A stretch of 64,000 bases of DNA from a virus. The notes below the pieces were generated by a model. That model did no database searches. It saw only the letters and a list, made by a program, of their open reading frames with translations, and had not been told where the DNA came from. A program made the translations under genes and the position numbers. This document shows positions 14,071 to 63,301 of the stretch, in pieces; within the stretch, counting starts at the first letter, position 1; every line of letters begins with the position of its first letter. The DNA lies in IMG/VR virus record IMGVR_UViG_3300030108_002876, positions 1-64,000 of that record. The stretch is one strand, 5' to 3'.

Positions 14071-15114
14071 TTAAAAGATTACATAGTTTGCTCCACACTT
14101 AAAGTTGTACCACTCTCTGTTCCAGTACTTATAGTATCTACCTTCAAGAAATACACCTATGTGTTTATTAAATCTGTGTCCGTATATTAAACCAGCTGAG
14201 TAGTCAAGCCACTGACCACCTACTGTATTGTGATACATATATTCACCTCCAGTGTCGTAATGGTAGGGTAAAACATTTCCCCATGTGTGGAACCAGAAGT
14301 CGTCTGTAAAGTGATAGAAGTCGAAGCCGGCAACCACCGAGTAATTCCATTGACGAGAGAGTTCACTTCTTTTTCTAGTAGTATATTCAGATAAGATGTT
14401 AGGGATAGTGACTGCTTCCCAGACTTCAGTGTTTGTTGCAACGACTGTTCCGTCAGGAGCGAGGTACTCGCCTGTAACAAGGTTGTGTGAATATCCTTCT
14501 TCAATTGCGAGGTAAGTATAGTGTATGTCTCCTGTTGCCAACTTCCACTCTTCAAGTGGATCATACCCGTAAGGTTCTGAGATACGTTGTGCGATACCTG
14601 CGTGCAAAGAAAACTTGTTACCGAGCTTAAGTCTAAATCGTTGTGATCCCTCAAAGTACTCAATGTCTGCAAACCCGTCTTCAAGGTATTCAACCTTTGC
14701 CATAACTTTGTCTCCGATGTAACGAAAAAAGTGGTGCTGATTAAAGAACTCTTTACCTTGTTGTCTTTCGTATGTAACCTCTCCAAGAAACTCTATGCCG
14801 TTACGCTTACCTATATTAGCGTCAGCAGACCAAGATGTTTCTGATCCGTCATAAAAAGCATTAGCTCTGTTTTCATAACCAAACCTAGCGATCTTACGCA
14901 CACCCATAGATAAACTATAGTCAAATGGTGTTGCTATAGTCTCTTGAGTTAACCCGTCAGTAACAGAGTATATAGTTTGATCTGACACAGAGTTACCTCC
15001 GTTAACAGCTGCATAGAACGTAGAAAACTTAAATGCTTTCTTTAACTCTTGAGCATGTAGTACCGTACAGCTAAATAGTAAGGTTAGTAATAAACTTAAT
15101 CGTGGTAGTAACAT
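14071..15114 (-). CDS. Phage-encoded outer-membrane beta-barrel protein
   Basis: 347 residues. A clear signal peptide (PRLSLLLTLLFSCTVLHAQ) is followed by alternating polar/aromatic strands (YSLSMGVRKIARFGYENR, FRLKLGNKFSLHAGIAQ, YSAGLIYGHRFNKHIGVFLEGRYY in part). It ends in Phe (GANYVIF), the usual terminal aromatic of outer-membrane barrels recognised by BAM. Starts 19 bases inside the giant ORF. Could alter the host surface, for example to block superinfection, or be a receptor mimic; both are inference. Confidence 0.7.
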   Translation of the reverse strand: MLLPRLSLLLTLLFSCTVLHAQELKKAFKFSTFYAAVNGGNSVSDQTIYSVTDGLTQETIATPFDYSLSMGVRKIARFGYENRANAFYDGSETSWSADANIGKRNGIEFLGEVTYERQQGKEFFNQHHFFRYIGDKVMAKVEYLEDGFADIEYFEGSQRFRLKLGNKFSLHAGIAQRISEPYGYDPLEEWKLATGDIHYTYLAIEEGYSHNLVTGEYLAPDGTVVATNTEVWEAVTIPNILSEYTTRKRSELSRQWNYSVVAGFDFYHFTDDFWFHTWGNVLPYHYDTGGEYMYHNTVGGQWLDYSAGLIYGHRFNKHIGVFLEGRYYKYWNREWYNFKCGANYVIF

Positions 15115-21100: not shown

Positions 21101-24100
21101 CAGCAACGCTTGGATCTGCTAGTATAGCTTCGAGTGAAACGTTACCTTCACGTGCTTGCATGGTAGTCCACCCTTTGCGAACTTGAAGTTCAGTACCATA
21201 CCTATCTAATATAGCATCTTCTGCTTTACGGTTTCTGTTTTTTCTACCGCTTTCGCTAAACTTACCTCCATAAACCTGTAGCTCTACAAACTCCATCAAC
21301 TTCTCGTCTTTACGATGTGAGTTTACTCTATTGTTTCTAGCTTTACGCTGCATTTCAGTGTGAACAGCAACCGCTTTTTCTCTGTTAGACAACTGATCCC
21401 AACCAGATTTTTTAGATAGCTTGTCTTGTACTTTTAAACCTTCTTCGCCATATACATCTTCTACCACGTTACCGTCTTCGTAAGCTTGAGCAACTTCGGC
21501 ATGCGTTTTACTAATTCTATTATTAGCGCTAGATAACCTTTGATCAAAAGATTTTAAATCACCACCGCTCAGTGTAGCTCTATATTTTTTTAGTTTTTTA
21601 TCTATTGTAGCTTGCGAATCAGATCCTGTAATACCAGCTTCTTGGTGTATTTTTAATAAAGCTTTATTAGCTTCTAGTGTAGTTTTTAAGGTCTTTGAAC
21701 CACCAACTAAAACATCAAGCTCTAAACCGGCTTGCAAATTAGACAGTCTACCTACCTCTTGAAGATAATCTATTTTAAGAGCTTCTCTCTCAGCTGGTGT
21801 TGCGGCTCTTTCCATACTAGCTGTGATCATGTCTAGATTCGTCATTACATCATTGTAAACCGCTCTAGTGTCACTAGTCGCCATTGTAGAAGTAAACGCG
21901 TTATATACGTTACCAGCACCTTGAGTTGGGCCAGCTGATATAATAGAAGAGAAAACTACATCAAGAGCGCCAGAGTAATCTGCGTCTTGGCCTAGTATTA
22001 AACTACCAGCCATTTGATCTCCAAAGAATATTAAGCCTTCTTCAAGAACTTCACTACCAGTTTCTTTAGCAGTAGCAAGAACACCTCTGCCTACGTTTTG
22101 ATACCACGTATTAGTTGCAGTTCTAAGGACATCATCAACCTCACCTCCAAAAGCTTTTAATAATTTTTGAGAGTTTATAGCCGTACCAAAAAACGTAGTT
22201 ACACCACCTTCAATAACAAGAGCTGAAGCCATAGCTGTATACAGTTCTGTATCATCTATATCTCCAAGAGCAATGGTTTTTTCTAACTCTCCTTTTTGCA
22301 CTAAGTACTCGGCCATTGATATGTCGCCGCGCTCACGTTGAGCTTCTAAAGCGGTAAGCTGCTTTTGAGCTTCTTCTCCAGCAGAACGCATATCATATAT
22401 CTGCTTTTTCTTTTGGCCTGCAGATCCAGTTCCAAAAATACCAAAACCAGTGGTCGCTGAGCTTCCGTATTTTATAACGTTAGCTGACGCTCCAAGCGCT
22501 TTCAAACCACTAGATGTTACACCACCTGTACCGACAGCTACAAGTAGGTTTGGTAATTGTTGAGTAAACGTTCTAGACGCATACTCACCTTTCTGACCAA
22601 TATCCCAAGCTTCACTAGCAGTAAGCATAGTTCTGTAAGCACCTGCTCTGTCATCTATTCTTTGCAAGCCCGCTATACCTTCTTCGCTACCAAAAAAAGC
22701 CGTAGTACCCCACCACATGCCCTTCCAAGCGTCCATCCAGTCTTTCCACCTTTTATCATGATCATCAAATTCTTTTGAAACAGTATTAAGCACAGCTGCA
22801 TTGTCTTGAGTTTCGTTAACAAACTCTAGATATTTAAGCATCTCACCTCTAAGGCCATTCATATAGTCTGAATTTATAGTCTCGTATTGACGATATAGGT
22901 TGTCAACTTTCTTCTGAAATACTTTGCGATCTTCTTCACTGCCATCTTCTGGCATATCTATTACAAATCTGAACGTACCTTCTTCAACATTACCCTCAGA
23001 GTGATAGCCATATCCTGCTTTAGCAACATCAGCTAAAGTGCCATTAATAGTTGTAGCTAAACTATCGCTCTTCTGCTTTAAATGGTTTTCAATAGTAGAC
23101 TGTCTAGCGCTAAAAGCGTTGATCTTAGCTTGTATGTTGTGAGGTGCTGTTTTTTCGTCTATAACACCTCTTACTATATTAGCGTTTGAAGAATTTGATA
23201 TCTCTCTTTCAATCAATATGCTTCTACGTCGATCAACTTGTTCATCTACAACAGATCCTACTATAATGTTTACCATATCAGAACCTGCTGTCAATGAATT
23301 TCTAACTGCTTCTTGACCTTCAAGTGATAAGTTCTTGTACATGTCAGACTCAAGCACACCGTCAAGTCTTTGCTTTTGCCAATCTGAAGCCAGTGTTTTT
23401 TCAGTATATGTTTTTTTATAGCCCTTTACCCATTTCTCTTTCTTTGTTGTGTAGTATATAGGTTCGTTAAAATATTTTGCTATTGTAGTTATTTCTTCTT
23501 CTGGCAAGTTTGAGTCTTCTAGTACAGTTCTAATCACATCAAACGTTAGAACGTTATTGTCTTTAAGAGCTAAACTAATAGCCGTTGCACTGTACTCTGT
23601 TTCATCTATGTCAAATGTTGATGGATCATCACGAGTAACAATATATTTATCTTCAAAAGCGGAAAGCTCAGCGTTAATACCATTAAGTACTTCGGCTTCT
23701 CTTTCAACCATGTACTCTCTTGACTTTTGCAAAAAGTTTACGGTAGGATTGCCTTTATCATCATAGCCAAATCCGTTTTCTTCATGAAAATCTTTTGCCA
23801 AGTTCCAAAAATAGTTTTGTACTTCACCACTACTTACGCCAGCGTAATTATTGTTCATCGTACCACCAATTTCATTGGCTTCATTTTCACCTAAAGGGTT
23901 AGAATTATAGTCTTCAAAATCTTCAGGCGCTCCTCCTAAAACAACTTCGCCGTCTTTTAATACTCTATACCCTCTTATAATTACTCCTCTTCTTCCTTTT
24001 TGTTGGTTATATCTACTACCAGAATATTGATCAAGCATATATTCACCTTGCAAATTTTTTCTCATTACTTGCACAGGATAAATTGGTTCAATAGTATATC

Positions 24101-25130
24101 CAGAAGCACTAAGCGCTTCGTTCATACCTTCAATATCATTAAATTGATAGGCGTATTCTTCACCCGCTTGCGCTTTAGACGTGCCAAATGGATTTTCAGA
24201 AGCCCCAAATGCTGGGTCTGCGTTACCACTATCTTTTCTTTCAAACAAAGACCATATAGGATTAGATGCTATTTTACTGTTATCACCAGTATTATACCAT
24301 TCTGCAATATTATCTACAGCTGTATCTACATGTGTTTCATCTTCATCTGATATTACTGAATACCCACCGTTTGGCTTAAATACAACAGCATGTTCGTTGC
24401 CAAATCTATTAACATTAGTGTGACTTGCTTGCAAGTTGGGAAAAGCTGCAGTACCTTTAAAATCTCCAGCTATAGTAGAAGAAGAGTAGTTAAACTCACC
24501 TTGATACTCTCGTTTAATATTAGTTTTAAGGTCTTTAGTAAATTTATCTTCAATACCTTCAAACATACCTGGCTGATCCGCTTCATCGCCTTCAGTATAA
24601 TCAGCGTCAACTTTATCTACAAACTCGTTATACTCAGGAAACATTTCTTTAGCTATCGTGTTAGCTACGTCTCCTGAAGTCTGTGTCCAACTTGGCGCAC
24701 CTACTTTTTTAGTGTAGTATATACCGTTTTCTCTTTTGTATTCATATCCATCTCCTCTATCTGAAATAATTTTAGGTGCATCTTGCGGCTCTTCAGTTAC
24801 AACTTCTTCTTCTTGCCTTTGTTCTTCAATTATAACTTCTTCTTCACTACTAATATCTGTATCTACTTGATCATCATCTTCTTGCTCCAACAAAGATTCG
24901 TCTGTACTCACTTCCGTAGTAGACTGTAAAGCGTCTGATTGCCCTTGAGTCGTTGACTCTCCGCTTGGGCTTGGCTGAGAGTCTTGATCTTTTTTTACCT
25001 GCTCGTCATCTTTGTACTGCTTTACAAAAGCCATTATGTCAGTCTTAGCTTGTTCGCTTAACACACCGTTATTAGCAGCTTTCGCGGCATCAATCTTTTC
25101 TTGAACAAGAAGTTCTAGTTCTGGATTCAT
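15096..25130 (-). CDS. Giant polyvalent internal virion protein with protease-like and HAD-like modules
   Basis: 3344 residues, the largest ORF here. Residues 1-130 are acidic and low complexity. A hydrophobic/Gly-rich region near 860-1080 (VAVGTGGVTSSG, LEEGLIFFGDQMAGS) resembles membrane-active parts of ejected proteins. HESTH at about 1431-1435 is a zincin HExxH motif. From about 2382, WDFDDTLARTKS and later DIAFADDALQNV form a HAD-type phosphatase module. The C-terminal third has segments common to phage polyvalent proteins (FFNARSAMLQMISNVNFINW, GKWILAFQNTPMQ). The last 75 residues carry two Cys/His zinc knuckles (SGKRCSNK...CTIH; NGKRCKMK...CYYH). Probably ejected with DNA, as T7 gp16 is. 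Confidence 0.75.
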   Translation of the reverse strand: MNPELELLVQEKIDAAKAANNGVLSEQAKTDIMAFVKQYKDDEQVKKDQDSQPSPSGESTTQGQSDALQSTTEVSTDESLLEQEDDDQVDTDISSEEEVIIEEQRQEEEVVTEEPQDAPKIISDRGDGYEYKRENGIYYTKKVGAPSWTQTSGDVANTIAKEMFPEYNEFVDKVDADYTEGDEADQPGMFEGIEDKFTKDLKTNIKREYQGEFNYSSSTIAGDFKGTAAFPNLQASHTNVNRFGNEHAVVFKPNGGYSVISDEDETHVDTAVDNIAEWYNTGDNSKIASNPIWSLFERKDSGNADPAFGASENPFGTSKAQAGEEYAYQFNDIEGMNEALSASGYTIEPIYPVQVMRKNLQGEYMLDQYSGSRYNQQKGRRGVIIRGYRVLKDGEVVLGGAPEDFEDYNSNPLGENEANEIGGTMNNNYAGVSSGEVQNYFWNLAKDFHEENGFGYDDKGNPTVNFLQKSREYMVEREAEVLNGINAELSAFEDKYIVTRDDPSTFDIDETEYSATAISLALKDNNVLTFDVIRTVLEDSNLPEEEITTIAKYFNEPIYYTTKKEKWVKGYKKTYTEKTLASDWQKQRLDGVLESDMYKNLSLEGQEAVRNSLTAGSDMVNIIVGSVVDEQVDRRRSILIEREISNSSNANIVRGVIDEKTAPHNIQAKINAFSARQSTIENHLKQKSDSLATTINGTLADVAKAGYGYHSEGNVEEGTFRFVIDMPEDGSEEDRKVFQKKVDNLYRQYETINSDYMNGLRGEMLKYLEFVNETQDNAAVLNTVSKEFDDHDKRWKDWMDAWKGMWWGTTAFFGSEEGIAGLQRIDDRAGAYRTMLTASEAWDIGQKGEYASRTFTQQLPNLLVAVGTGGVTSSGLKALGASANVIKYGSSATTGFGIFGTGSAGQKKKQIYDMRSAGEEAQKQLTALEAQRERGDISMAEYLVQKGELEKTIALGDIDDTELYTAMASALVIEGGVTTFFGTAINSQKLLKAFGGEVDDVLRTATNTWYQNVGRGVLATAKETGSEVLEEGLIFFGDQMAGSLILGQDADYSGALDVVFSSIISAGPTQGAGNVYNAFTSTMATSDTRAVYNDVMTNLDMITASMERAATPAEREALKIDYLQEVGRLSNLQAGLELDVLVGGSKTLKTTLEANKALLKIHQEAGITGSDSQATIDKKLKKYRATLSGGDLKSFDQRLSSANNRISKTHAEVAQAYEDGNVVEDVYGEEGLKVQDKLSKKSGWDQLSNREKAVAVHTEMQRKARNNRVNSHRKDEKLMEFVELQVYGGKFSESGRKNRNRKAEDAILDRYGTELQVRKGWTTMQAREGNVSLEAILADPSVAGNFEVIQADSNEDLMAKIKQEFDNGNITQDEYDALRDDTQDMFKSSTEDGVEFGALLPGGKYITIANTQQVQDALDKGEILQGTVVLHESTHAIDVLSGMNAEGQMENFARKLMTGLNGDKNLRWVDQTARDRVNALNLEQGSQEYYDEYTKSVQDILGNKYFKSEFNAAKKAAGRTSLRNWYRMATGKGFTINNSKDALNFMVSNIEAFRNGEVSKLTKSRIEGTLDGETSKKRFSRSGQEASERVQTLYEDQGVGAAMDIIDEFGGRVNKLVNKYQDVPGFDRQLLTDEINTGRRGILDMILEYDQDANPGVPIAAYINKFLDRRAIEAANRILKTEFEDDVTEARGVAAEAAAEPEVVSRTREGIRLADRFGERGQKIHDDTKQQVKRGAINTDNKTYKTLGNAVSDQVQTMFGVVPKPGNLTKGDVKNAQAFIMKHADTLIAMLPEGTDTSGKSTGVNKVLLEPFYEKGGRVSASKTGSKAGLAAQLKRDNITKQEFLETFGVTPAGQPNVSDRNTSARIKALIDQTGKAMTNQAAKEALIEQGKGQGFTFEDGKSKTLYSKTANKLQSEYSTIGQAVLNKIQSEEGLQMIEDVTGNIQGAFNNLFTDEDIRALAIEQFGRAGKKEVSLITRRFAKIGSELQQVYDEFSGFKPVKDVSVNVGILKQPLSQIIQGHIVNEITTHRQYYTTVVGENNVLDLSNPLDVEKARAGASKLGQKLAEKYGAEFNERFLVPGLAAASSRKRGFFTDGREDTRKLLGAVKGEIGDYSRPPSNYMDGNFSYDQVKKHVNNKDAIVKAQQENNKAFRQIVEELRSMVDSKEISLAQATQILETLNSSQQGLTRSSAIFDFAPTKPFKLEPALNRDGTPKLDSKGNPIMLGATLEHMTPALQVNLQALRYIATGNADQKTQFDQTMDNYRLAYLPKKYDDIVNLFYKSTVPYWQTSDMSPLGRYYGPQLLAAGFDLELSMLSTGVSIGGDAGITIDNWNRVNKERKDALGPLGGNDVGTIEQTRSNAKKANKEKSLYSRTGKKKGMTAWDFDDTLARTKSNVIFNKDGETKIVSAEDFATQGADLVAEGWVPDFSEFNKVTGGTPGPFFDKAMRRAKKYGTQDTFILTARAPESAPAIKEFLDSLGLNIPIENITGLGNSTGEAKARWLLDKHAQGYNDIAFADDALQNVEAVRKVFDEFDIKGKVEQAKTLFSRSAPARVSEIIGQGEADLNADLNIILEETKDVDRKKKFSPAKAKQRGKNKGKFKFFLPPSAEDFKGLMYPMLGKGQIGEQHHQWFKENLFDPYSNGMRRLNALQQETSGDLRALKRTHKDVKSKLKRKVPGTEFTYEQAIRVFNWNRNGVEVPGLSQADLNKLTKAVKADPQLTSFANGLEQILDKAEATVEPGDNWLGGTISMDIMETIDASRETLLQEWNNNVDVIFSEQNLNKLEAVFGSNYREALEDSIYRMKTGSTRNFGSNRLVNGFTQWLNGSIGTTMFFNARSAMLQMISNVNFINWSDNNLLAAGKAFANQKQYWTDVSMIFNSDFLKQRRAGIGTDLNAAELLKELQGSKNPMKTAISYLLQLGFTPTQAADSLAIATGGATMYRNRLNTYLEQGMSQQEAETKAFQDMREVAEETQQSTRPDKISQQQASPLGKWILAFQNTPMQYNRIIKRAAQDLINGRGDNRANISKIIYYGAVQSAIFYGLQSALFSVMFGDDEEEDDLDVKKERVVNGMVDSLLRGAGIGGAVVATVKNVIIEHLEQKAKEDDDVYMTEYNETDVLIEALNLSPPVGIKARKLVSGMRTWEYNQDVIDYMPKTDLDNPIYDASFAATEAVTNVPLSRLYNKVQNIRAALDSENETYKRVAMFLGWSRWSFGIQNQDVLGAKRELKEIKAEEAEERREQKKQEREAEKQAANEAVIQGHIDEQQEQRDNNVAEEEIQCAAVTRSGKRCSNKVLPGETYCTIHQEVPQQANEVQCSHIKSNGKRCKMKTKNKSGKCYYHD

Positions 25131-51518: not shown

Positions 51519-51776
51519 CACTACATCTCTTGCTCGGATTACATGGTACATTGTGTCTGCCCAGGTTATACCATGCCCAGCATGTTTGTCGTAATATATA
51601 ATATCGTTATCTTTTAGGCCTTCAACTAGATTACCTGTAGAGATAATCGTAGCTTTAATATACCTATTGCTTTCGTCTAGTTCTTCAGTAAGAAGTAAGC
51701 CACCAACTTTCTTAGGACCCACTTTCTCTACGTCTACTACTATGTAATCATTGATTGCTTTCATCTGCTCTAGCAT
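51507..51776 (-). CDS. groS: Co-chaperonin GroES
   Basis: 89 residues (or 85 from a second Met). Cpn10 pattern: MKAINDYIVVDVEKV, mobile-loop region VGPKKVGGLLLTEELDES with GGLLLT in the place of the GroEL-binding IVL, then IKATIISTGN, LKDNDIIYYDKHAG, IRARDVVLVE. Caps the GroEL ring. It starts 29 bases inside the end of groEL and lies downstream of it, opposite to the cellular groES-groEL order. Confidence 0.85.
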   Translation of the reverse strand: MLEQMKAINDYIVVDVEKVGPKKVGGLLLTEELDESNRYIKATIISTGNLVEGLKDNDIIYYDKHAGHGITWADTMYHVIRARDVVLVE

Positions 51777-53319
51777 TTGATATTACACAATCAGCTGATA
51801 TAATAGTTGACACTACTGATACAGCGTTCTTTAATGCAGACTTAGTAACAAGTACTGGATCTACAATACCTGCTTCAATCATATCTACACACTCACCAGT
51901 TATTACATCGATGCCACAGTACTCTTGATCGTCGCATACCACACCTGTAATACCTGCGTTATCTAGTATTGTATCGAAAGGAGCTTTAATAGCTTCTAGC
52001 AATACTTCCTCACCCGCGTTAGCGGGAGAAATTTTTTGAGCAGCCCACCATAGTGCTGAACCGCCGCCAGGTACTATGCCTTCTTTTAGTGCAGCTTTAG
52101 TTGCGTATATAGCATCTTCAACCCTGTCTTTCTTTTCTTTGAGTTCTACTTTAGAACCTGCACCCACTTTGATAATACCTACAGAGCCTGATAGCATAGC
52201 TAAACGTTCTTCAAGCTTCTTTTTAAAAAACCCGTTTTTTTCTTCAGCTACTTTCTTAGACACTTGCTCAATACGTTCGTTAATTTCCTCTGTCATTTCT
52301 TCAAGAGTTATTACTGTATTAGTATCGCTAGTTACCGCGTACTCAGCTTCACCAAGATGTTCTACACTTATGAGATCTAAGTCATCACCTAGCTCTTCAT
52401 TAATAACAGTAGCGCCTGTCATAATAGCTAAATCTTCTGTAGCATCTTGCTTAGTAGGTCCAAAGCCAGGCAAGTCAACGATGTTAACTTTAATATTACC
52501 TTTTACCTTGTTCATCATAAGCGCTGACTTGACGCCTTGCGCTACTGGAGCTATAATAAGTAAAGCCCTACCTTTTTTAATGACATGCTCTAATACGCTT
52601 TGTATCTTACGTACATTAGGTATCTCACTTGACACAATAAGTACATATGGATTATCTAGCTCTGCTAGATGTTTATCAGTGTTAGTGACGAAGTGCGGCG
52701 ACGTAAGCCCGCAGTCAAACTGCACTCCGTCAACTAACTCAACATGCGTTTCATCGGTGTCACCTTCCTCCATAAGTACGACACCATTCTTACCTACTTT
52801 TTGGTAAGCTTCTGCAATAATGCTTCCAAGGGCTTGATCATTATTACAACTAATCGCGCTAACAGCGCTAAGCATGCTCCCTTCAACTTCAATAGCCCTT
52901 CCTTCCAGATGTTGCACAACTTTGTCCAGGCCTGAGCTAATACCTGCTTTGATTTCTCTAATAGATTCATCAGCATATTTTTCTTTGTTTACTTCTTTTA
53001 AAAGTGCTTCAGCAAGGACAGTAGCTGTAGTAGTACCGTCACCTGCTTCTTTCACTGTATTGTTAGCTGCCTCCTTAATTAAGGTTGCACCTATGTTTTC
53101 GACCGGATCATATAAGACTACGCTTTGGGCAACGGTTACTCCGTCTTTTGTTATGACCGGCTTGCCGCGAGCATCTTCGTATATAACGCATTTACCCGAT
53201 GCGCCTAATGTACTCTTTACGGCTTGCGCTAGTTTAGTTACACCAGCAATTACTTTATCTTTAGCGATTTGACCAAAGTCTAAACGTTTGATCAACTCAC
53301 TAGGTAAGTTGTATTCCAT
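51748..53319 (-). CDS. groL: Chaperonin GroEL (60 kDa)
   Basis: 523 residues, complete group I chaperonin: KSTLGASGKCVIYED, KDGVTVAQSV, ATP-site AGDGTTTATVLAEAL, apical domain with LAELDNPYVLIVSSE and KGRALLIIAPVA, and EGIVPGGGSALWWA with the catalytic region. It is about 25 residues shorter than E. coli GroEL and lacks the Gly-Gly-Met tail, ending ISNARADESNQ. It probably folds capsid or the giant tail proteins. Sequence is clearly diverged at ordinarily constant places, so old phage acquisition rather than recent host transfer. Confidence 0.95.
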   Translation of the reverse strand: MEYNLPSELIKRLDFGQIAKDKVIAGVTKLAQAVKSTLGASGKCVIYEDARGKPVITKDGVTVAQSVVLYDPVENIGATLIKEAANNTVKEAGDGTTTATVLAEALLKEVNKEKYADESIREIKAGISSGLDKVVQHLEGRAIEVEGSMLSAVSAISCNNDQALGSIIAEAYQKVGKNGVVLMEEGDTDETHVELVDGVQFDCGLTSPHFVTNTDKHLAELDNPYVLIVSSEIPNVRKIQSVLEHVIKKGRALLIIAPVAQGVKSALMMNKVKGNIKVNIVDLPGFGPTKQDATEDLAIMTGATVINEELGDDLDLISVEHLGEAEYAVTSDTNTVITLEEMTEEINERIEQVSKKVAEEKNGFFKKKLEERLAMLSGSVGIIKVGAGSKVELKEKKDRVEDAIYATKAALKEGIVPGGGSALWWAAQKISPANAGEEVLLEAIKAPFDTILDNAGITGVVCDDQEYCGIDVITGECVDMIEAGIVDPVLVTKSALKNAVSVVSTIISADCVISNARADESNQ

Positions 53320-55328: not shown

Positions 55329-55510
55329 TTAATCTGCTATTTACAAAGTGTGACACAAGCCTACTACTAGGATACTATTAACTAGCTATTGTCATACTTT
55401 TTTGGGATATTATAAATTTTGGAGTAAAATGTAGCCCCCCTCCCCCGCCCCCTCCCCCCTGCCAGGAAAAGTCGCGACTCTAAGCCAGCCCCGCCTCTTA
55501 TTTTTACACT
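55329..55510. other. Divergent intergenic region with G-quadruplex tract
   Basis: 182 bases between the two arms with no ORF. Contains the C6-T-C5-G-C5-T-C6 tract (55435-55459), GCCAGGAAAA, and the perfect 10-base palindrome AGTCGCGACT (55470-55479), followed by CCCCGCC. The rest is AT-rich. Candidate replication or transcription start region (see findings). The Bacteroidota promoter pair TTTG/TAnnTTTG was not found at proper spacing. Confidence 0.7.
55435..55459 (-). promoter_or_regulatory. Potential G-quadruplex with single-base loops
   Basis: Minus strand reads GGGGGG-A-GGGGG-C-GGGGG-A-GGGGGG. Four G-runs of 5-6 with three one-base loops, the most stable parallel quadruplex type known. 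The opposite strand could form an i-motif. Very unusual in a genome this AT-rich. Confidence 0.85.
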
Positions 55511-55549
55511 TTACAAACTAAATACGACTTCACTTGGATAATATATATG
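55511..55549 (+). promoter_or_regulatory. Bipartite element, copy 1
   Basis: ACAAACTAAATACGA (55513-55527), spacer CTTCACTT, GGATAAT (55536-55542), then ATATATG which is followed by TAA; the actual gene start is at 55574. See findings for the seven-copy family. Confidence 0.85.
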
Positions 55550-55573
55550 TAAACAAAATCTAATAACTACAAA

Positions 55574-55777
55574 ATGAAAAAGTTAAACTACAAATTAAAA
55601 ACTCTTATAATTACTAAAATAGCTAAAAACTTCAGAAAAAAGTTACCAATCGCTCGCAATCTCAAAGTTCAAAATATTGATTACATGTATGAATATAGCT
55701 TTATTCAACTATTCAAAACATTAATCGACTCATTCAAACTTGAACCTCAACACTTCAATAACATGTTTATCAAATGA
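55574..55777 (+). CDS. First gene of the plus arm, small basic protein
   Basis: 67 residues, Lys-rich and helical (MKKLNYKLKTLIITKIAKNF, RKKLPIARNLKV, LIDSFKLEPQHFNNM). Headed by element copy 1. Its stop overlaps the next tiny ORF (ATGA). Early host-takeover style small protein; function unknown. Confidence 0.6.
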   Translation: MKKLNYKLKTLIITKIAKNFRKKLPIARNLKVQNIDYMYEYSFIQLFKTLIDSFKLEPQHFNNMFIK

Positions 55778-55839
55778 GACAAATACTTGAATCAATAGCA
55801 ATAATTATACTTATACTACTAAGTTGTTGTGTGTACTAA
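55774..55839 (+). CDS. 21-residue lipoprotein-like peptide
   Basis: MRQILESIAIIILILLSCCVY. A hydrophobic segment ending in a lipobox-like LLSC-C, starting with an ATGA overlap on the previous gene. Could be a lipid-anchored micro-protein such as those used for superinfection exclusion, or chance. Confidence 0.4.
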   Translation: MRQILESIAIIILILLSCCVY

Positions 55840-55911
55840 AAAAATTGTACAATCACACTCGCGGCAGAAGACTACTCTAGTAAAATTGTATACTAAACAA
55901 AACATACTCTT

Positions 55912-55949
55912 TTACAAACTAACAACGACACTCGTTGGATAATAATAAT
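55912..55949 (+). promoter_or_regulatory. Bipartite element, copy 2
   Basis: ACAAACTAACAACGA (55914-55928), spacer CACTCGTT, GGATAAT (55937-55943). The next ATG is 33 bases further at 55982. Sits in a 142-base gap (55840-55981) that holds no other ORF. Confidence 0.85.
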
Positions 55950-55981
55950 AACTAATTTAAAAATTCTAAAATTTACATATC

Positions 55982-56227
55982 ATGTCAAATTCTAATAACA
56001 CTCTAATCTCAAAGCGTTTCGTACTACGTCAGTCACTTGTTGGCAAAAATGCTATCATCACTGTCAACTTCAAAAATGGCAAAACAGTTACTTACTCACA
56101 CGACAAAGCATTCACTCTTATGCAGTCTGCACTCGAAGCAATGCCATGTTGGGCAAAGTACAAGTCGTACACTGCTACTAACAATGTGCCAAAGGCAATT
56201 CGTGAAACTGAAGCAATTGTTGACTAA
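55982..56227 (+). CDS. Small early protein of unknown function
   Basis: 81 residues: LISKRFVLRQSLVGKNAIIT, VNFKNGKTVTYSHDKAF, MQSALEAMPCWAKYKSY. Mixed beta then helix. Headed by element copy 2. No family recognised. Confidence 0.6.
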   Translation: MSNSNNTLISKRFVLRQSLVGKNAIITVNFKNGKTVTYSHDKAFTLMQSALEAMPCWAKYKSYTATNNVPKAIRETEAIVD

Positions 56228-56443
56228 TGATTAGTGCCAGCAAACTCCGCAAGTTGTCAGGCTTGTACCGCTTCCGCAGAGTATAAACAAATAATAGTCC
56301 AGTTAGTTGTATGTTTACTGGTAAATCAAATATGAACATACACACATAGTAGTCCTTGGCGGAATTGGCGGCGATTTTACCGTAGCATTGCAATTACGAG
56401 TTCGATTCTCGTGCTACTACTAACAATTAAATAAATAGAAAAC
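56228..56443 (+). other. Noncoding stretch with paired segments ending in a tRNA-like RNA
   Basis: 216 bases without ORF. Before the tRNA-like part (56347-56420) it contains nested complementary pieces: ACTC near 56243 with GAGT near 56279, and CAAG with CTTG inside. This suggests a structured transcript that ends in the tRNA-like element. Confidence 0.45.
56347..56420 (+). ncRNA. tRNA-like element 1
   Basis: Acceptor arm TAGTAGT (56347-56353) pairs with GCTACTA (56413-56419) over 7 bp (one G-U). T-arm ACGAG-TTCGATT-CTCGT (56396-56412) is perfect. D-loop-like GGAATTGG is present and the length (74) equals a normal tRNA. But no convincing 5-bp/7-base anticodon arm could be drawn, and C sits at the discriminator. 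Either a degenerate tRNA or a tRNA mimic. Confidence 0.5.
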
Positions 56444-56542
56444 ATGAAAACATTTTTCAAAAATCACTATGTACTTATCGTACTTGGCTTCTGGCTAACA
56501 ACTTTAATGTGTCTATCTTCTTGCTTAGGCGTTACAAACTAA
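56444..56542 (+). CDS. 32-residue lipoprotein-like peptide
   Basis: MKTFFKNHYVLIVLGFWL then TTLMCLSSCLGVTN. N-terminal basic head, hydrophobic span and a lipobox-like LSSC make a small lipoprotein precursor. Its stop TAA is the one inside element copy 3 (ACA AAC TAA). Similar in size to phage lipoproteins that block superinfection. Confidence 0.5.
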   Translation: MKTFFKNHYVLIVLGFWLTTLMCLSSCLGVTN

Positions 56543-56572
56543 GCACGAACGCTAAAGGATAATAATAATATG
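56532..56572 (+). promoter_or_regulatory. Bipartite element, copy 3
   Basis: ACAAACTAAGCACGA (56534-56548), spacer ACGCTAAA, GGATAAT (56557-56563), ATG at 56570. First base of the block to ATG is 36 bases, equal to copies 4, 5 and 6. Confidence 0.9.
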
Positions 56573-56875
56573 ATATTCGATACTAAACTACGAGCTGAAG
56601 TAAAAATACAGCGTGATGCAGTGCATCAATTACTCAAGCACCACTTACCAAAGTGTGAGCTAACGCTAATCGGTGACAGCGAGATACAACTCACATGGCA
56701 CTCAAATCCTCACTGTATACGTGAAACATTACTTACATGTAGCATGTATGGCGACTGGCAGTTCGAAGAGCACCAGTGGGAGTCGTTCGATAACTATCAT
56801 TACTCAACAGACTTAAACGTCGACTACACGTCACCTGCTAACGAAGTTGTTAACGCATTAATGAAATTACTATGA
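56570..56875 (+). CDS. Small early protein of unknown function
   Basis: 101 residues: FDTKLRAEVKIQRDAVHQLL, CELTLIGDSEIQLTWHSN, LTCSMYGDWQFEEHQWESF. Acidic and Trp/His-rich. The start is the ATG that closes element copy 3; the stop overlaps the next ORF. No family recognised. Confidence 0.65.
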   Translation: MIFDTKLRAEVKIQRDAVHQLLKHHLPKCELTLIGDSEIQLTWHSNPHCIRETLLTCSMYGDWQFEEHQWESFDNYHYSTDLNVDYTSPANEVVNALMKLL

Positions 56876-57003
56876 GATTACTATCAATCATCGCGCTCTG
56901 CTTAGTATTTAATGCAGAGATAAATCAAGGCTGGCAAGGCTGGGTAAACTCTACTTGGGACGTAGTAGGTGTTCACAAACCAAATACGAAACTAAATGGA
57001 TAA
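56872..57003 (+). CDS. 43-residue exported peptide
   Basis: MRLLSIIALCLVFNAEINQGW in outline: a short signal-peptide-like start with cleavage after N-A, then a Trp-rich tail ending KPNTKLNG. Starts with ATGA overlap on the previous gene and ends inside element copy 4 (GGA TAA). Function unknown. Confidence 0.45.
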   Translation: MRLLSIIALCLVFNAEINQGWQGWVNSTWDVVGVHKPNTKLNG

Positions 57004-57013
57004 TATTAATATG
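56973..57013 (+). promoter_or_regulatory. Bipartite element, copy 4
   Basis: ACAAACCAAATACGA (56975-56989), spacer AACTAAAT, GGATAAT (56998-57004), ATG at 57011. One change (C for T) in the first block. Confidence 0.9.
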
Positions 57014-57202
57014 AAGACAATACAATTCCTCAAAGACAAAAGAGTACAGCTCAATGGCGTAACTTTCAAGCCATACTGTATCGGCGACTTACCGCCATCA
57101 TTCGGTTGCATTGCTCACGAGCGTGACGCAGACGGCGACATTGTTAAATACGGCATAAGTGAATGGTTTGCATTCAAAGGCTTTTGCTACATACCAGAGT
57201 AA
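57011..57202 (+). CDS. Small early protein
   Basis: Start chosen at 57011 (MKTIQFLKDK), the ATG at the fixed distance from the element, not the ATG at 56996 inside it. 63 residues: VQLNGVTFKPYCIGDLPPSF, IAHERDADGDIVKYGISEW. No family recognised. Confidence 0.6.
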   Translation: MKTIQFLKDKRVQLNGVTFKPYCIGDLPPSFGCIAHERDADGDIVKYGISEWFAFKGFCYIPE

Positions 57203-57204
57203 TC

Positions 57205-57357
57205 ATGAAAATTACAGTATTAAATTTTGAAGTGTGCGAAGTAGATACAATAGAGCTACCAGCAGAGTTACATGGCGCACAAATCGAAGTGCTAGAAGGT
57301 TTTTTAATCGGCAAAGACTACAGTCTTGGCAATATAGAGTGGATGCAACATGAATAA
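57205..57357 (+). CDS. Small early acidic protein
   Basis: 50 residues beginning MKITVLNFEVCEVDTIELP; acidic (ELPAELHGAQIEVLEGF). The ATG at 57205 is two bases after the preceding stop; a longer upstream reading (57163) would overlap needlessly. Function unknown. Confidence 0.6.
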   Translation: MKITVLNFEVCEVDTIELPAELHGAQIEVLEGFLIGKDYSLGNIEWMQHE

Positions 57358-57853
57358 TCAAGCAAAAAAATATAGAAAATACTACGAAGCACTCGACGCA
57401 ATCGGTTGCAAGCATATATCAACGCCACGTCAAATCAAGAATGGAACACGAGTATTTCGTCTACCATTCAAAGACGCTTGGGGTCACGATATAGACTTTG
57501 CTACATACGAGTCGGGTTATGTACGCAGATTAGTAAAGGTCGGCTATTGTCCTTGCTATCAAATTAATAAAAAGTGTAAGAAATCACGTATGGTTAAAGT
57601 AGAAAGCGGTACACACAAAGGCTATTACTACAAGAGACGCTCAAACGAACGCATACTAATTGAAGGTAATGGCGATCGACTAGAGTACTTATTTAACTAC
57701 ATTATACGTAATTTCTTTAGAGCTAAGCCAAAATACAATAGAACTATCGACATGGAGTGGTTAAACTTCTGTGCAAAGTGGCAATACGGTGAGTTTGGCT
57801 TCAACAGCTGCACTCAACCACAACAGAATAACATACTAAAATCTTTACAATAA
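57350..57853 (+). CDS. Basic early protein with Cys-rich centre
   Basis: 167 residues. YRKYYEALDAIGCKHISTPR, GTRVFRLPFKDAWGHDIDF, then VGYCPCYQINKKCKKSRMVKV, whose CPC...C spacing may be a small zinc site, then RSNERILIEGNGDRLEYLF. Basic overall. Overlaps the previous gene by 8 bases. No family recognised. Confidence 0.65.
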   Translation: MNNQAKKYRKYYEALDAIGCKHISTPRQIKNGTRVFRLPFKDAWGHDIDFATYESGYVRRLVKVGYCPCYQINKKCKKSRMVKVESGTHKGYYYKRRSNERILIEGNGDRLEYLFNYIIRNFFRAKPKYNRTIDMEWLNFCAKWQYGEFGFNSCTQPQQNNILKSLQ

Positions 57854-58188
57854 TGACAAGTTACGAACAAAGAGCGTATGACGCGCTCGCAGTGAAGCTA
57901 ACCGAAGCAGGTTACGCATATGAAAACACAAGCTGGGCTAATGATGCAACTGCATCTATATCAGTATCTTGTAGACGTGTAATTATATCAGAGGTTGAAG
58001 ATGAAGTTCAACAATTTGAGTTTCAAATTTACATACCTAACTGTGATTACCTCGACCCAGATAACGAGTTCTTTAATACTTATGCTATCACTGACGTGAT
58101 GACTGGTCACACATATGACTTCGATCGAGCTGATGAAGTTGTAGAGCATATTCAAGACTGCTTACGAGATGTTATTTTTACAAACTAA
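57853..58188 (+). CDS. Small acidic early protein
   Basis: 111 residues: YEQRAYDALAVKLTEAGYAYE, ASISVSCRRVIISEVEDEVQ, LRDVIFTN at the end. The final Thr-Asn-stop (ACA AAC TAA) is the first block of element copy 5. No family recognised. Confidence 0.65.
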   Translation: MTSYEQRAYDALAVKLTEAGYAYENTSWANDATASISVSCRRVIISEVEDEVQQFEFQIYIPNCDYLDPDNEFFNTYAITDVMTGHTYDFDRADEVVEHIQDCLRDVIFTN

Positions 58189-58218
58189 ATACGATTACCT
58201 CTGGATAATAATAATATG
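58178..58218 (+). promoter_or_regulatory. Bipartite element, copy 5
   Basis: ACAAACTAAATACGA (58180-58194), spacer TTACCTCT, GGATAAT (58203-58209), ATG at 58216. Consensus first block. Confidence 0.9.
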
Positions 58219-58428
58219 AAATGTCCAAAATGCAATAACACAATACAACCTGGCCGCGTGCGCCTTGGTTACAAAGTATGTATCAACTGTTCTACTGTAG
58301 AGCGTTATGGTTGTGCACCACTTATAAACCACAAGACAGGCAACTCAATACAAATTATGTCAAGCAGCGATGCTGCTCGTATTGCCAAACTTACAAGGCG
58401 TCGCGGTTATGGTACAATGCTAAAATAA
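58216..58428 (+). CDS. Zinc-ribbon early protein
   Basis: 70 residues with CPKCNN (C-x2-C) and a second CINC (C-x2-C) near 20 residues later, the four-Cys pattern of zinc ribbons. End basic (IAKLTRRRGYGTML). Starts at the ATG of element copy 5. Zinc-ribbon proteins of this size often touch RNA polymerase or nucleic acid; no partner known here. Confidence 0.65.
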   Translation: MKCPKCNNTIQPGRVRLGYKVCINCSTVERYGCAPLINHKTGNSIQIMSSSDAARIAKLTRRRGYGTMLK

Positions 58429-58435
58429 TATAATC

Positions 58436-58792
58436 ATGGATAAAGAAAATTTACAAACAAAGTTAGAAGCGCTAGAAGCTAACGTAAAAGTTAAGCAAAA
58501 TGAACTAGGCATTGCTATGTCAGAAGCTCAAATGGCGCGAGAAGAACTAGCTAATGCAGACAAACCTGTGCTATCAGCAGATAAAGCGTCAGATTTAGTA
58601 GATCTGTTACAAGGTATGTTTCACGATATACTAAATGACGCTGACACTAGCGACCTAAGTCCAGAGTTCAGTATAGACTATGGTAACGAGGTAAGACTCG
58701 ACTGCATTGACATGAGTGCGATCGAAGTACACTCAGGTGATATCGAAGCTGTACTAGAGCAGGTATTCAATATAGTGTCTGACAATAGCTAG
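58436..58792 (+). CDS. Small coiled-coil early protein
   Basis: 118 residues: KENLQTKLEALEANVKVKQNE and SEAQMAREELANADK form a coiled coil; the C-terminal half is acidic (DADTSDLSPEFSIDYGNEV). Lies 7 bases after the zinc-ribbon gene. Function unknown. Confidence 0.65.
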   Translation: MDKENLQTKLEALEANVKVKQNELGIAMSEAQMAREELANADKPVLSADKASDLVDLLQGMFHDILNDADTSDLSPEFSIDYGNEVRLDCIDMSAIEVHSGDIEAVLEQVFNIVSDNS

Positions 58793-59056
58793 TTAAGCAC
58801 GACGGTGCAAGGCGTACAAGCACATGTAAACACAAAGAGCTGTTTACCTAACGTGTAAAATTTACGATAGTGTACGTAACGGGCGAAAGCCACGCATTGG
58901 CCGCAGGTGACCTAGACGATAGGTGTCAAAGCTTCGGCGCCGGGTCAATGCTTTACATAAGAGTAACGGTTGTTATGCTTGCCTATCACAGGTAGCTTGG
59001 TGCACCAAGTGACGAGAAACAGCAAGTTAACGCAGGTTCGATTCCTGCACTCTTAC
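58793..59056 (+). ncRNA. Structured noncoding RNA region ending in tRNA-like element 2
   Basis: 264 bases without ORF. It contains GGC-GAAA-GCC (GNRA-capped, 58882-58891), GCATTG paired with CAATGC (58894-58899 with 58946-58951), and ACCTA-GACGA-TAGGT (58910-58924). GTAAAC/GTTTAC (near 58828/58841) also pair. The 3' end is a tRNA-like domain (58958-59055). No known RNA family could be named. It probably is transcribed and folds. Confidence 0.6.
58958..59055 (+). ncRNA. tRNA-like element 2
   Basis: Perfect 7-bp acceptor TAAGAGT (58958-58964)/ACTCTTA (59049-59055) directly joined to a perfect T-arm GCAGG-TTCGATT-CCTGC (59032-59048). In place of a normal anticodon arm is a longer stem GTTA-TG-CTTGC/GCAAG-T-TAAC with an inner CTTGG-TGCA-CCAAG hairpin. 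A T-arm and acceptor with a long replaced arm is the layout of the tRNA-like part of tmRNA, but no tag ORF was found. Confidence 0.55.
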
Positions 59057-59093
59057 AAACTAAATACGAATACTAATGGATAATATAAACATG
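59053..59093 (+). promoter_or_regulatory. Bipartite element, copy 6
   Basis: ACAAACTAAATACGA (59055-59069), spacer ATACTAAT, GGATAAT (59078-59084), ATG at 59091. Its first base is the last base of the tRNA-like acceptor, so the RNA's 3' end abuts the element. Confidence 0.9.
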
Positions 59094-59279
59094 AAAGACT
59101 ATATTACACAAGAGCTAGCTGCGCTCGATCGAAGCATTGTAGCTACACCACACACCAAAGCAGATCTAGAATCATTTGCTAAAGCAAATCAAGGTAGTAG
59201 CGATATACTACTTATGCAAATGGCAATGCAATACGGTTATAAACTAGCATTAGAAAACCTAGAAATAGAATTATCATGA
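59091..59279 (+). CDS. Small early protein
   Basis: 62 residues from the ATG at the element's fixed distance (MKDYITQELAALDRS); the ATG at 59076 lies inside the element and is unlikely to be used. Helical: LESFAKANQGSSDILLMQMA. Overlaps the next gene by 4 bases. Confidence 0.6.
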   Translation: MKDYITQELAALDRSIVATPHTKADLESFAKANQGSSDILLMQMAMQYGYKLALENLEIELS

Positions 59280-59512
59280 GACAAACATTGTATGAAAGAA
59301 TAACACCAGAGTGCAAAGAAGCTCTAGAATATAACTCTAAGCGCTGGCATGGCGCAACTAACAAAATAGTTAGCGTGCTATCGTCACATAAATTCTGGTC
59401 TGATTTAAGAGTAGGCGACGTAAACTTTATTATACAGTTCGTAGACCTACCATTTGCAAAAATAACTGCCAATACATTTGCGTTCGGCGAAAATATTATC
59501 AAAGATGAATAA
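59276..59512 (+). CDS. Small early protein
   Basis: 78 residues: RQTLYERITPECKEALEYN, WHGATNKIVSVLSSHKFW, PFAKITANTFAFGENI. Overlaps both neighbours. No family recognised. Confidence 0.6.
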   Translation: MRQTLYERITPECKEALEYNSKRWHGATNKIVSVLSSHKFWSDLRVGDVNFIIQFVDLPFAKITANTFAFGENIIKDE

Positions 59513-59771
59513 GAAAAAAGTACAAGAACAATTACCTAACTGGTTTCACGGTGAGGTGTATGAATTAGGCGACGAAGTTCGTAATCCATTTAGCGGCGAA
59601 ACAGTATTGCTAGATGCTGCTGAGCTAAGTATGTATGACTGCGTCAAAGGTGCTGAAATGATTATGCACATGGGCGCAGCTAACATTGATGAGTGTATAG
59701 ATGTTATTAACCAAGGTAAAGACTGGTTTCTTGCTAGAAACCCTCAAGCCTACATGACACTACTTGATTGA
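59505..59771 (+). CDS. Conserved-looking small phage protein
   Basis: 88 residues from MNKKKVQEQLP at 59505 (the ATG at 59478 would overlap more than needed). The WFHGEVYELGDEVRNPFSGE...ELSMYDCVKGAEM pattern, with a C-terminal helix (GKDWFLARNPQAYMTL), occurs in small proteins of many marine phages as I recall (DUF7222-like). Function unknown. Confidence 0.65.
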   Translation: MNKKKVQEQLPNWFHGEVYELGDEVRNPFSGETVLLDAAELSMYDCVKGAEMIMHMGAANIDECIDVINQGKDWFLARNPQAYMTLLD

Positions 59772-59848
59772 TGATTATACTTAGTATGCTAGTGTCATAT
59801 ATATTTTTAGAAATATTTATAGAATCAAAACAAAAATTTAAAGAATAA
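59771..59848 (+). CDS. 25-residue membrane peptide
   Basis: MIILSMLVSYIFLEIFIESKQ and KFKE. One hydrophobic span with a charged C-terminus. Starts one base inside the previous stop and ends with TAATG coupling to the next gene. Possible membrane micro-protein. Confidence 0.4.
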   Translation: MIILSMLVSYIFLEIFIESKQKFKE

Positions 59849-60261
59849 TGGCAACAAGAGCAACGATAAGGTTTGCTACACGCGAAGAAGGTGTACCTTT
59901 TGACAAACACCCACAACAATGGCATGCGCAATTCTACAACCACTATGACGGTTATCCTGAAGGTTTAGGTGTAGAGATCGCGAAGTCATTTACTAACTAC
60001 AATAAAATCAACGGCTGGGAAGTTGAAGCACTTGATATAGTTCACGGTGATATAGAATATCTGTATTACGTATGGCAGTGTCATGGTAAATCAGAGCCAT
60101 GGATTAGTATATTTCAAGTAATTGATTGGAGCGTTCCTGAAAATAATAGCGAAGGCAAATGCATCTTCGTAGGTACACCAGATATGTTATTGAAGAAGTA
60201 TGCGCCTGAAGAAAGCGATCTTGATAAAATTTCTAAGCATCTTTGCGATAATACAAACTAA
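59848..60261 (+). CDS. Conserved-looking early phage protein
   Basis: 137 residues: ATRATIRFATREEGVPFDKH, QFYNHYDGYPEGLGVEIA, EYLYYVWQCHGKSEPWISIF. The YxHYDGYP-type segment recurs in small proteins of many tailed phages and bacteria. Ends in Thr-Asn-stop within element copy 7. Function unknown. Confidence 0.65.
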   Translation: MATRATIRFATREEGVPFDKHPQQWHAQFYNHYDGYPEGLGVEIAKSFTNYNKINGWEVEALDIVHGDIEYLYYVWQCHGKSEPWISIFQVIDWSVPENNSEGKCIFVGTPDMLLKKYAPEESDLDKISKHLCDNTN

Positions 60262-60300
60262 ATACGAACGATGACGGATAATAATCTAAACAAATCAATG
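60251..60300 (+). promoter_or_regulatory. Bipartite element, copy 7
   Basis: ACAAACTAAATACGA (60253-60267), spacer ACGATGAC, GGATAAT (60276-60282). ATG follows at 60298, 9 bases further than in copies 3-6. An ATG within the spacer (60271) is probably not a start. Confidence 0.85.
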
Positions 60301-61922: not shown

Positions 61923-62546
61923 ATGTCACAGTATGAAAGAAACTTAGAGCTGTTAAATAAAAGGCGTGTAGTGTATCGTAGACTACCTATAACAGATGTA
62001 CCTGATATAGAAAACGATATGTACATGTTCTTTGAAAACGGCACGTATCAATGCTACGATCTATTTAAAAGTACAGCAAAGATAACTACGTATAAGTCTC
62101 TGAAGTGGCATTTGCTTGTTATATGGTATTTAAACCCAGGCATAGATCAAGATGAGTTTATGGATATAGCACTTGATATATCTGCTAAAACAAACGGCTA
62201 TGTTAGTTTTAATGTACCACCTAACTTATTGAACAAGATTGTTTATGAAGTTAGTATGCTTGATCTTATAGAGCCGCCGAAGAATAAACTACGTAAAGTT
62301 ATATTCAAGTTGCATTGTGGTCTAGCAAAAGATGAAAAGCTACGCATTGTAGGTCAGCTTATTGGTAGATCAAATAAAACGCATCCTGATGACGTTTATC
62401 AAGCTATGATAGATATACATGACTTAGGCCAAAAGATTACAATTAAACGTATCTCTAACGTCTTACATGTATCATCTCGAACTGTACATAGGTATATGTG
62501 CGAAGACTTGAAACGTGAAAAAGAATTATTAAATAAACAACTATGA
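61923..62546 (+). CDS. HTH-containing regulatory protein
   Basis: 207 residues. The C-terminal ITIKRISNVLHVSSRTVHRYM is a helix-turn-helix (recognition helix SSRTVHRYM) like MerR/ANTAR-style or terminase-type HTH. N-terminal part has a helical domain (LKWHLLVIWYLNPGIDQDEF, LRKVIFKLHCGLAKDEKL). It is co-transcribed with and overlaps the sigma-like gene; the pair probably resets transcription. Could also be a replication initiator. Confidence 0.65.
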   Translation: MSQYERNLELLNKRRVVYRRLPITDVPDIENDMYMFFENGTYQCYDLFKSTAKITTYKSLKWHLLVIWYLNPGIDQDEFMDIALDISAKTNGYVSFNVPPNLLNKIVYEVSMLDLIEPPKNKLRKVIFKLHCGLAKDEKLRIVGQLIGRSNKTHPDDVYQAMIDIHDLGQKITIKRISNVLHVSSRTVHRYMCEDLKREKELLNKQL

Positions 62547-63301
62547 AATGTTATAATGTACAAAACTACATACGCTATAAAAAAGATATAAAGCAATGGA
62601 GTAAACGTGTAGACTGGTGTAGGCCATGGGACGAGATGACTCGTGATGAGCTTATAGTTAAGTTTATGCCTCTTGCAGAAAACCTAGCGCGTAAGTTTTC
62701 AACTACGCAACAAGCTAGCGGTGTAATGACTATCAACGATCTTATACAAGAAGGTAATAAAAACTTAGTTATTGCTGCAGATAAAATAGCTTGGGATACT
62801 ATATATGAAGCTGAAGACCCAGAGCAAAGGCTTAAATCATTTTTATCAAAGCGAATTAAAGGTGGTATACGTAGGGCTATAGATATAATGCGTGGCACTA
62901 TGCGTATACCAGAACATAAGATTAACGAGATACGTAAAAACGAAGGTAAAGATCGTGATGCAGTAGAAATGTTTTTCAACTCTGTATTTCAAAGTCTTGA
63001 TGCTATGGTAGACGATACAACTAATATGTATGACGTACCTGAGCCAGTGCAGACTTACAACCCTGAGCTGTTAGCTTCATATCTTATTAGTCTATTGCAA
63101 ATACACCTAGATCCAAGAGAGTTTGATGTAGTAGTATATAGCTACGGTATTAATTGTGATAAGCTATCTGCTAAACAAATTGCAGCTAAACTTGATATTA
63201 AAGGCGACAGTGCTTACGTACGTGTATCACAGTTAAAACGTCAAGCTATTGACAAGCTTGTTGACAATGTAGATTACTCGCAAGTGGTTGACTTTCTGTA
63301 A
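62543..63301 (+). CDS. Sigma-70-like RNA polymerase factor
   Basis: 252 residues. Region 2: LIVKFMPLAENLARKFSTT, MTINDLIQEGNKNLVIAADK, KSFLSKRIKGGIRRAIDIM (promoter -10 recognition helix), then MRIPEHKINEIRKNEG. Region 4: LDPREFDVVVYSYGINCDKL, SAKQIAAKLDIKGDSAYVRV and QLKRQAIDKLVDNV, the -35 HTH. A phage factor that would redirect host RNA polymerase to phage promoters. Overlaps the HTH gene by 4 bases. Confidence 0.8.
   Translation: MKCYNVQNYIRYKKDIKQWSKRVDWCRPWDEMTRDELIVKFMPLAENLARKFSTTQQASGVMTINDLIQEGNKNLVIAADKIAWDTIYEAEDPEQRLKSFLSKRIKGGIRRAIDIMRGTMRIPEHKINEIRKNEGKDRDAVEMFFNSVFQSLDAMVDDTTNMYDVPEPVQTYNPELLASYLISLLQIHLDPREFDVVVYSYGINCDKLSAKQIAAKLDIKGDSAYVRVSQLKRQAIDKLVDNVDYSQVVDFL

Follow-up and report, generated by a model that had tools for sequence, protein, structure and literature searches.

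What reads a two-part sequence that recurs ahead of the small genes near one end of a phage genome, and where would transcription from it begin? The question is raised by IMG/VR virus record IMGVR_UViG_3300030108_002876, whose positions 1 to 64,000 (the window, which makes up most of the 65,509-base record) contain seven copies of the element ACAAACTAAATACGA-N8-GGATAAT, comprising a 15-base block 1, an eight-base spacer and a second block. The answer favoured here, at a probability of roughly 0.7, is a promoter dependent on a phage-encoded sigma factor, in which the 15-bp block would lie at -36 to -22 and which would often drive leaderless mRNAs. A search confined to one literature library found no paper on the motif.

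Seven copies before a cluster of small genes

In the list that follows, positions in the element are counted as bases after the first base of block 1, the base 36 bases later being position 36, and leaders are given in nucleotides (nt).

55513..55542, + strand: copy 1, ACAAACTAAATACGA-N8-GGATAAT; putative +1 at 55549 (G), leader of about 25 nt to the ATG at 55574
55914..55943, + strand: copy 2, block 1 with two mismatches; putative +1 at 55950, leader of about 32 nt to the ATG at 55982
56534..56563, + strand: copy 3, block 1 with two mismatches; putative +1 at 56570, the A of the ATG, apparently leaderless
56975..57004, + strand: copy 4, one mismatch; putative +1 at 57011, the A of the ATG, apparently leaderless
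58180..58209, + strand: copy 5; putative +1 at 58216, the A of the ATG, apparently leaderless
59055..59084, + strand: copy 6; putative +1 at 59091, the A of the ATG, apparently leaderless
60253..60282, + strand: copy 7; putative +1 at 60289, leader of 9 nt to the ATG at 60298

A scan of the 64-kb window that allowed up to three mismatches recovered these seven copies at the starts given in a preliminary description of the locus, all on the + strand and with zero to two mismatches. No eighth copy was found elsewhere in the window, in agreement with the earlier statement that the other 55 kb lack the motif, nor in the last 1.5 kb of the record or in the backwards control, and the random-shuffle control that had been proposed gave no match in 100 dinucleotide shuffles of the window. 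The seven copies were thereby confirmed as real and far above chance. The ATG placed 36 bases after the block start in copies 3-6 also proved exact. The conserved part is wider than first described: a T precedes ACAAAC, an A succeeds GGATAAT, and a pyrimidine/purine step occupies positions 35/36.

Several copies adjoin other features. Copy 4 holds another in-frame ATG within its spacer (56996), and the stop codon of the upstream open reading frame (ORF) lies inside block 1 of both copy 5 and copy 7. Copy 6 begins at the 3' end of one of two tRNA-like sequences on the + strand (56353-56425 and 58957-59055), each with a T-arm-like portion and matching acceptor ends; neither was called by ARAGORN or Rfam, the latter giving no match in the window or region. 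Copies in the related loci L146, L156, L197 and L088 also start at a tRNA-like 3' end. Directly before copy 1, positions 55431-55500 are rich in C (in G on the opposite strand), and many relatives have a similar C-rich or GC-rich stretch ahead of their first copy.

Fixed spacing and concerted letters among relatives

The motif scan of this genome and its relatives, as earlier suggested, located the same element in more than 100 related uncultured viral contigs, nearly always with an eight-base spacer and upstream of small genes; a relaxed exact pattern matched at least 118 viral stretches. Each of 22 near-complete records contained 3-12 copies, confined to one strand in 22/22, and the backwards control gave no match in any of them. 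Across 122 non-redundant loci encoding the sigma factor considered below, 795 copies lay on the sigma strand and six on the opposite one; all six preceded the first + copy by 10-181 bases, forming back-to-back divergent pairs near the strand boundary.

With regard to the spacer, 848 block-1 sites (two mismatches at most, in all DNA fetched) were followed by the second block at a spacing of 8 in 795 cases, 7 in one and 3 in one, the remaining 51 having no exact GATAAT nearby. The spacer had been described as random in sequence and always eight bases long. Its length was upheld in 795 of the 797 sites with an exact GATAAT, leaving two exceptions, and 612 distinct spacers were counted among 812 copies, but the letters are mildly biased, with G low and T as the last spacer base in 73%.

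The letters of the blocks vary between genomes and mostly agree among the copies within one genome. Each of the four bases occurs at position 23 in one genome or another, and within-genome identity there is 0.746, compared to 0.318 after shuffling (z 43); less strongly, positions 3-7 and 10 are also concerted. Most of the sigma-bearing genomes that first scored as motif-poor were found to hold diverged, concerted versions with the same spacer, including ATAAGGTTGACACGA-N8-TGATAAT in L282 (nine copies, all TGATAAT), ACGGAGCAAACACGT in L331 and AGATATT in L257. As the letters are both concerted and genome-specific, they imply a trans-acting reader, which would be the simplest explanation of such variation.

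The source record is that of a podovirus-like phage, whose terminase shares 64% identity with that of MW202828 and 31-46% with those of Elemovirus, Pachyviridae, Pervagoviridae and other phages, with hosts in Flavobacterium, Cellulophaga, Maribacter and Tenacibaculum; the phage belongs to a group of uncultured marine phages with probable hosts among the Flavobacteriia. The virion genes occupy one strand (approximately 6.3-55.3 kb), while the other strand encodes a ligase, the sigma factor and an ERF recombinase from 55.5 kb, and a primase-helicase at the opposite end of the record. The motif is confined to the start of this second, non-virion strand, before a cluster of small genes. Also encoded are a GroEL homologue (51748-53319, - strand) and a 767-aa protein with a C-terminal type IX secretion sorting domain (10747-13050, - strand).

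The candidate reader and the putative start-site register

Two adjoining genes downstream of the copies, on the same strand, are candidates for the reader.

62543..63301, + strand: sigma-70-family factor, proposed reader, on the basis of TIGR02937, phrog_351, PDB, Foldseek and co-occurrence with the motif
61923..62546, + strand: 207-aa helix-turn-helix (HTH) protein, possible partner; overlaps the sigma gene and has a weak HTH_11 match

Sequence and predicted fold together confirmed the ORF at 62543-63301 as a member of the sigma-70 family. It passed the TIGR02937 cut-off (45.1 bits against 42.9), fell just under that of Sigma70_r4 (22.4 against 24.1), matched phrog_351 and aligned with regions 2 and 4 in order. 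A profile search of the PDB returned Aquifex FliA as the best match (3.8e-12, residues 26-243, nearly full length), and the Foldseek matches of its model (predicted local distance difference test score, pLDDT, 78; predicted template modelling score, pTM, 0.46) were sigma factors. This gene was present in all 22 motif-bearing near-complete records and missing from the three relatives tested; no homologue was found in 50,697 GenBank phage records.

The motif itself was absent from all eight GenBank relatives. In the nearest GenBank relative, MW202828 (L199 43745-50000, L200), which has neither motif nor sigma, the 16-bp palindrome GTGTCGTTAACGACAC occurs in 14 exact copies, many of them shortly 5' of small-gene ATGs; a comparable location is thus taken there by another element, one that is symmetric. 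Bacterial genome records had motif copies in six stretches, with no sign of a host regulon, and exact single copies in a few of these records are an exception to the reader being present wherever the promoter is. Three are in long contigs of Flavobacteriaceae/Flavobacteriales metagenome-assembled genomes (MAGs; L453 149-179, - strand; L454 4275-4305, + strand; L452 324-354, + strand), two of them before the same predicted secreted-protein gene and the third before a TerB-like gene. The genomes of L452-L454 had no close relative of the sigma, the copies did not match the pyrimidine-purine start signature, and chance, transfer or binning may account for them. A further single copy with a start-site-like sequence (L451 3100-3130, - strand) lies on a contig of 64 kb that the records assign to a Prochlorococcus single-cell genome, where the genes nearby look viral and do not match the window.

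Where transcription would begin was judged from 1149 sites, of which 99% have a purine at position 36 and 81% a pyrimidine-purine step at positions 35/36; A25 and T29 are near-invariant. With GATAAT taken as -12 to -7, position 36 would become +1, seven bases past the last T, and the sequence then carries the signature of a sigma-dependent promoter (A-11, T-7 and a purine +1 at that distance). The ORF-opening ATG peaks exactly at 36 (193/1149), has a second mode at 55-58 (leaders of approximately 20 nt), occurs rarely at 37-45, and otherwise varies widely in distance. If GATAAT is the -10 element, therefore, a share of the transcripts would lack a leader and the others would carry leaders similar to those of F. 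psychrophilum, for which a median leader of 24 nt and 5.5% leaderless transcripts were reported (PMC9723704). The preliminary description had raised a start at GGATAAT as something to test. The purine signature makes position 36 the likelier place; an ATG at 34, found in 30% of sites, opens an ORF in only 39/1149, and this mostly idle codon would fall within the leaders if transcripts began at GGATAAT.

This register bears on the comparison with known promoters. The element reads ACAAAC-N18-GATAAT where the housekeeping sigma-70 promoter has TTGACA-N17-TATAAT, and its spacing had been thought incompatible with sigma-70; the geometry does fit if GATAAT serves as the -10 element, with ACAAAC 18 bp upstream at -35. 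SPO1 gp28 and T4 gp55 are phage-encoded sigma factors with private promoters, and the likeness here would be a phage sigma-70-family protein that redirects the host polymerase to a repeated, phage-specific consensus. Unlike those systems, the present element has a 15-bp block extending to -22, letters that vary by genome, probable Flavobacteriia hosts and many seemingly leaderless copies. The -10 element of FliA, GCCGATAA, holds GATAA, as does the phage element, and Aquifex FliA gives the phage sigma its best PDB match, but the TAAA -35 element at the FliA spacing is unmatched. The misfit with the Bacteroidota promoter (TTTG/TAnnTTTG) that had been noted was borne out: in place of the TAnnTTTG -7 element of sigma-A stands GGATAATA, T-12, T-8, T-6 and G-5 are not kept, and there is no TTTG at -33, although in the proposed register A-11 and T-7, which the host -7 element also keeps, are common to both (PMC6847099). 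For F. psychrophilum, only sigma-A, one sigma-54 and extracytoplasmic function (ECF) factors were reported (PMC9723704).

Taken together, a site for a two-half protein or an RNA polymerase, as the fixed spacing had first suggested, is supported, and a promoter is its most likely form. The further proposal that the phage sigma reads it gained a sigma-70-family gene that accompanies the motif in 22/22 records, and its reading of the site is put forward here as the likely one. Host core RNA polymerase carrying the phage sigma would melt GATAAT as the -10 element and begin transcription at position 36, the purine after the pyrimidine. ACAAACTAAATACGA would act as the upstream recognition element, in contact with sigma region 4 and possibly with a partner protein. 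One complex would hold both blocks, which would fix the length of the spacer, and the spacer letters would go unread and so be free to vary. Each copy would initiate transcription of the small gene or genes that follow it, with a leaderless mRNA where the ATG coincides with +1, and, with the sigma gene downstream on the same strand, the regulon would feed back on itself. From sequence we infer binding, transcription and start site, along with the feedback and the timing, and the label 'early' given in the preliminary description is set aside for now.

A number of observations weigh against this reading. The upstream letters most constant across variants are ACG at -25 to -23, which is not at the usual contact of sigma region 4. 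In 22/1149 sites the ORF has no early in-frame ATG other than one in the spacer, which precedes the putative +1; expression of these genes would call for another start codon or for a transcript begun farther upstream. The sigma loci of L261 and L430 had no copy, even diverged, in approximately 10 kb upstream. If the sigma has to be made first, something must transcribe its gene, and no enrichment of a host-type box (TAnnTTTG included) was seen ahead of the first copy; the first molecules may come from packaged sigma or by way of a weak host promoter. Clade-wide co-occurrence is by itself unable to separate the sigma from other clade-specific genes or to single out any one gene, and the HTH protein co-occurs equally well. 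Covariation is likewise equivocal. Plain mutual information was rejected as confounded by phylogeny, control proteins scoring as high. On one tree, K106 and K126 in sigma regions 2.4/3.0 ranked first and second of 501 columns in three proteins for change together with position 23, which is suggestive, but the set-level test of these regions gave p values of 0.0024, 0.084 and 0.11 on three trees, the first alone being significant. Sigma region 4.2 showed no consistent covariation with block 1.

ALTERNATIVES: two-protein reader, virion RNA polymerase or RNA element

Of the alternatives, the one that survives best, although clearly the less probable, is a reader made of two phage proteins, in which the sigma would read the -10 half and the adjacent HTH protein would bind the 15-bp block in the manner of activators at -30. 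The HTH gene is beside the sigma gene in 22/22 motif records, often overlapping it or within 10 bases, and block 1 reaches -22, past the usual -35 element. T4 middle promoters, which comprise a MotA box plus a -10 element, similarly join a -10 element to a distinct protein site near -30, but the phage record yielded no relative of MotA or AsiA. In the tree-controlled test block 1 had no consistent covarying partner, the HTH protein included; the latter may instead be a replication factor, and neither its sequence nor its confidently modelled fold had a significant match in the PDB. A more specific version, in which positions -13 to -6 are read by a FliA-like sigma and the block by the HTH partner, and in which the pair drifts as a private cipher that recognizes only the promoters of its own lineage, is held to be similarly tentative.

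A promoter for a phage-encoded or virion RNA polymerase, with its start at GGATAAT, is improbable. Related systems do use conserved AT-rich early promoters with virion polymerases, and in P23-45 such a motif is repeated before the first-expressed genes and co-occurs with its reader among relatives; that reader, however, is a tail-tape-fused RNA polymerase, and none was found in the present record (PMC10770324). The GG would be a plausible start, but a start at 36 agrees better than one at 23 with the purine at 36 and with the ATG that 30% of sites have at 34, and the large ORFs scanned had no match to an RNA polymerase family. A search for a crAss-like virion polymerase (two-barrel, DxDxD) found none in the 3344-aa ORF (15096-25130, - strand), and matches in other ORFs were implausible. 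On reading, this giant ORF contains HExxH (VLHESTHAID), a HAD-like WDFDDTLA and C-terminal zinc-finger-like repeats; its relatives are mostly approximately 2200 to 3344 aa, and it looks like a polyvalent protein injected with the DNA. An N4-type hairpin promoter was also rejected, as no fold was common to the seven copies and only copy 2 was stable (DNA parameters).

The translation enhancer or RNA-processing site that had been raised as alternatives would act in the leader, and the ATG often at a fixed distance (position 36) would suit them; they are nonetheless very unlikely given the otherwise wide range of ATG distances, the lack of a shared single-strand fold, the divergent pairs at the cluster start and the match to -10/+1 geometry. 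Just as unlikely is that the element serves purely as an operator, bound by a phage regulator and lacking a start site: concerted variation demands only some DNA-binding protein, and MW202828 has its palindrome in comparable places, but the present element is directional, non-palindromic and followed by a start-site-like signature.

Dependence on the phage sigma would provide a testable regulatory logic, with both reader and start site named, for these uncultured marine phages, which are widespread and probably infect Flavobacteriia. More than 100 natural sigma-promoter sets with genome-specific letters would constitute a dataset on sigma-promoter co-evolution and, if confirmed, may offer orthogonal expression tools for Flavobacteriia.
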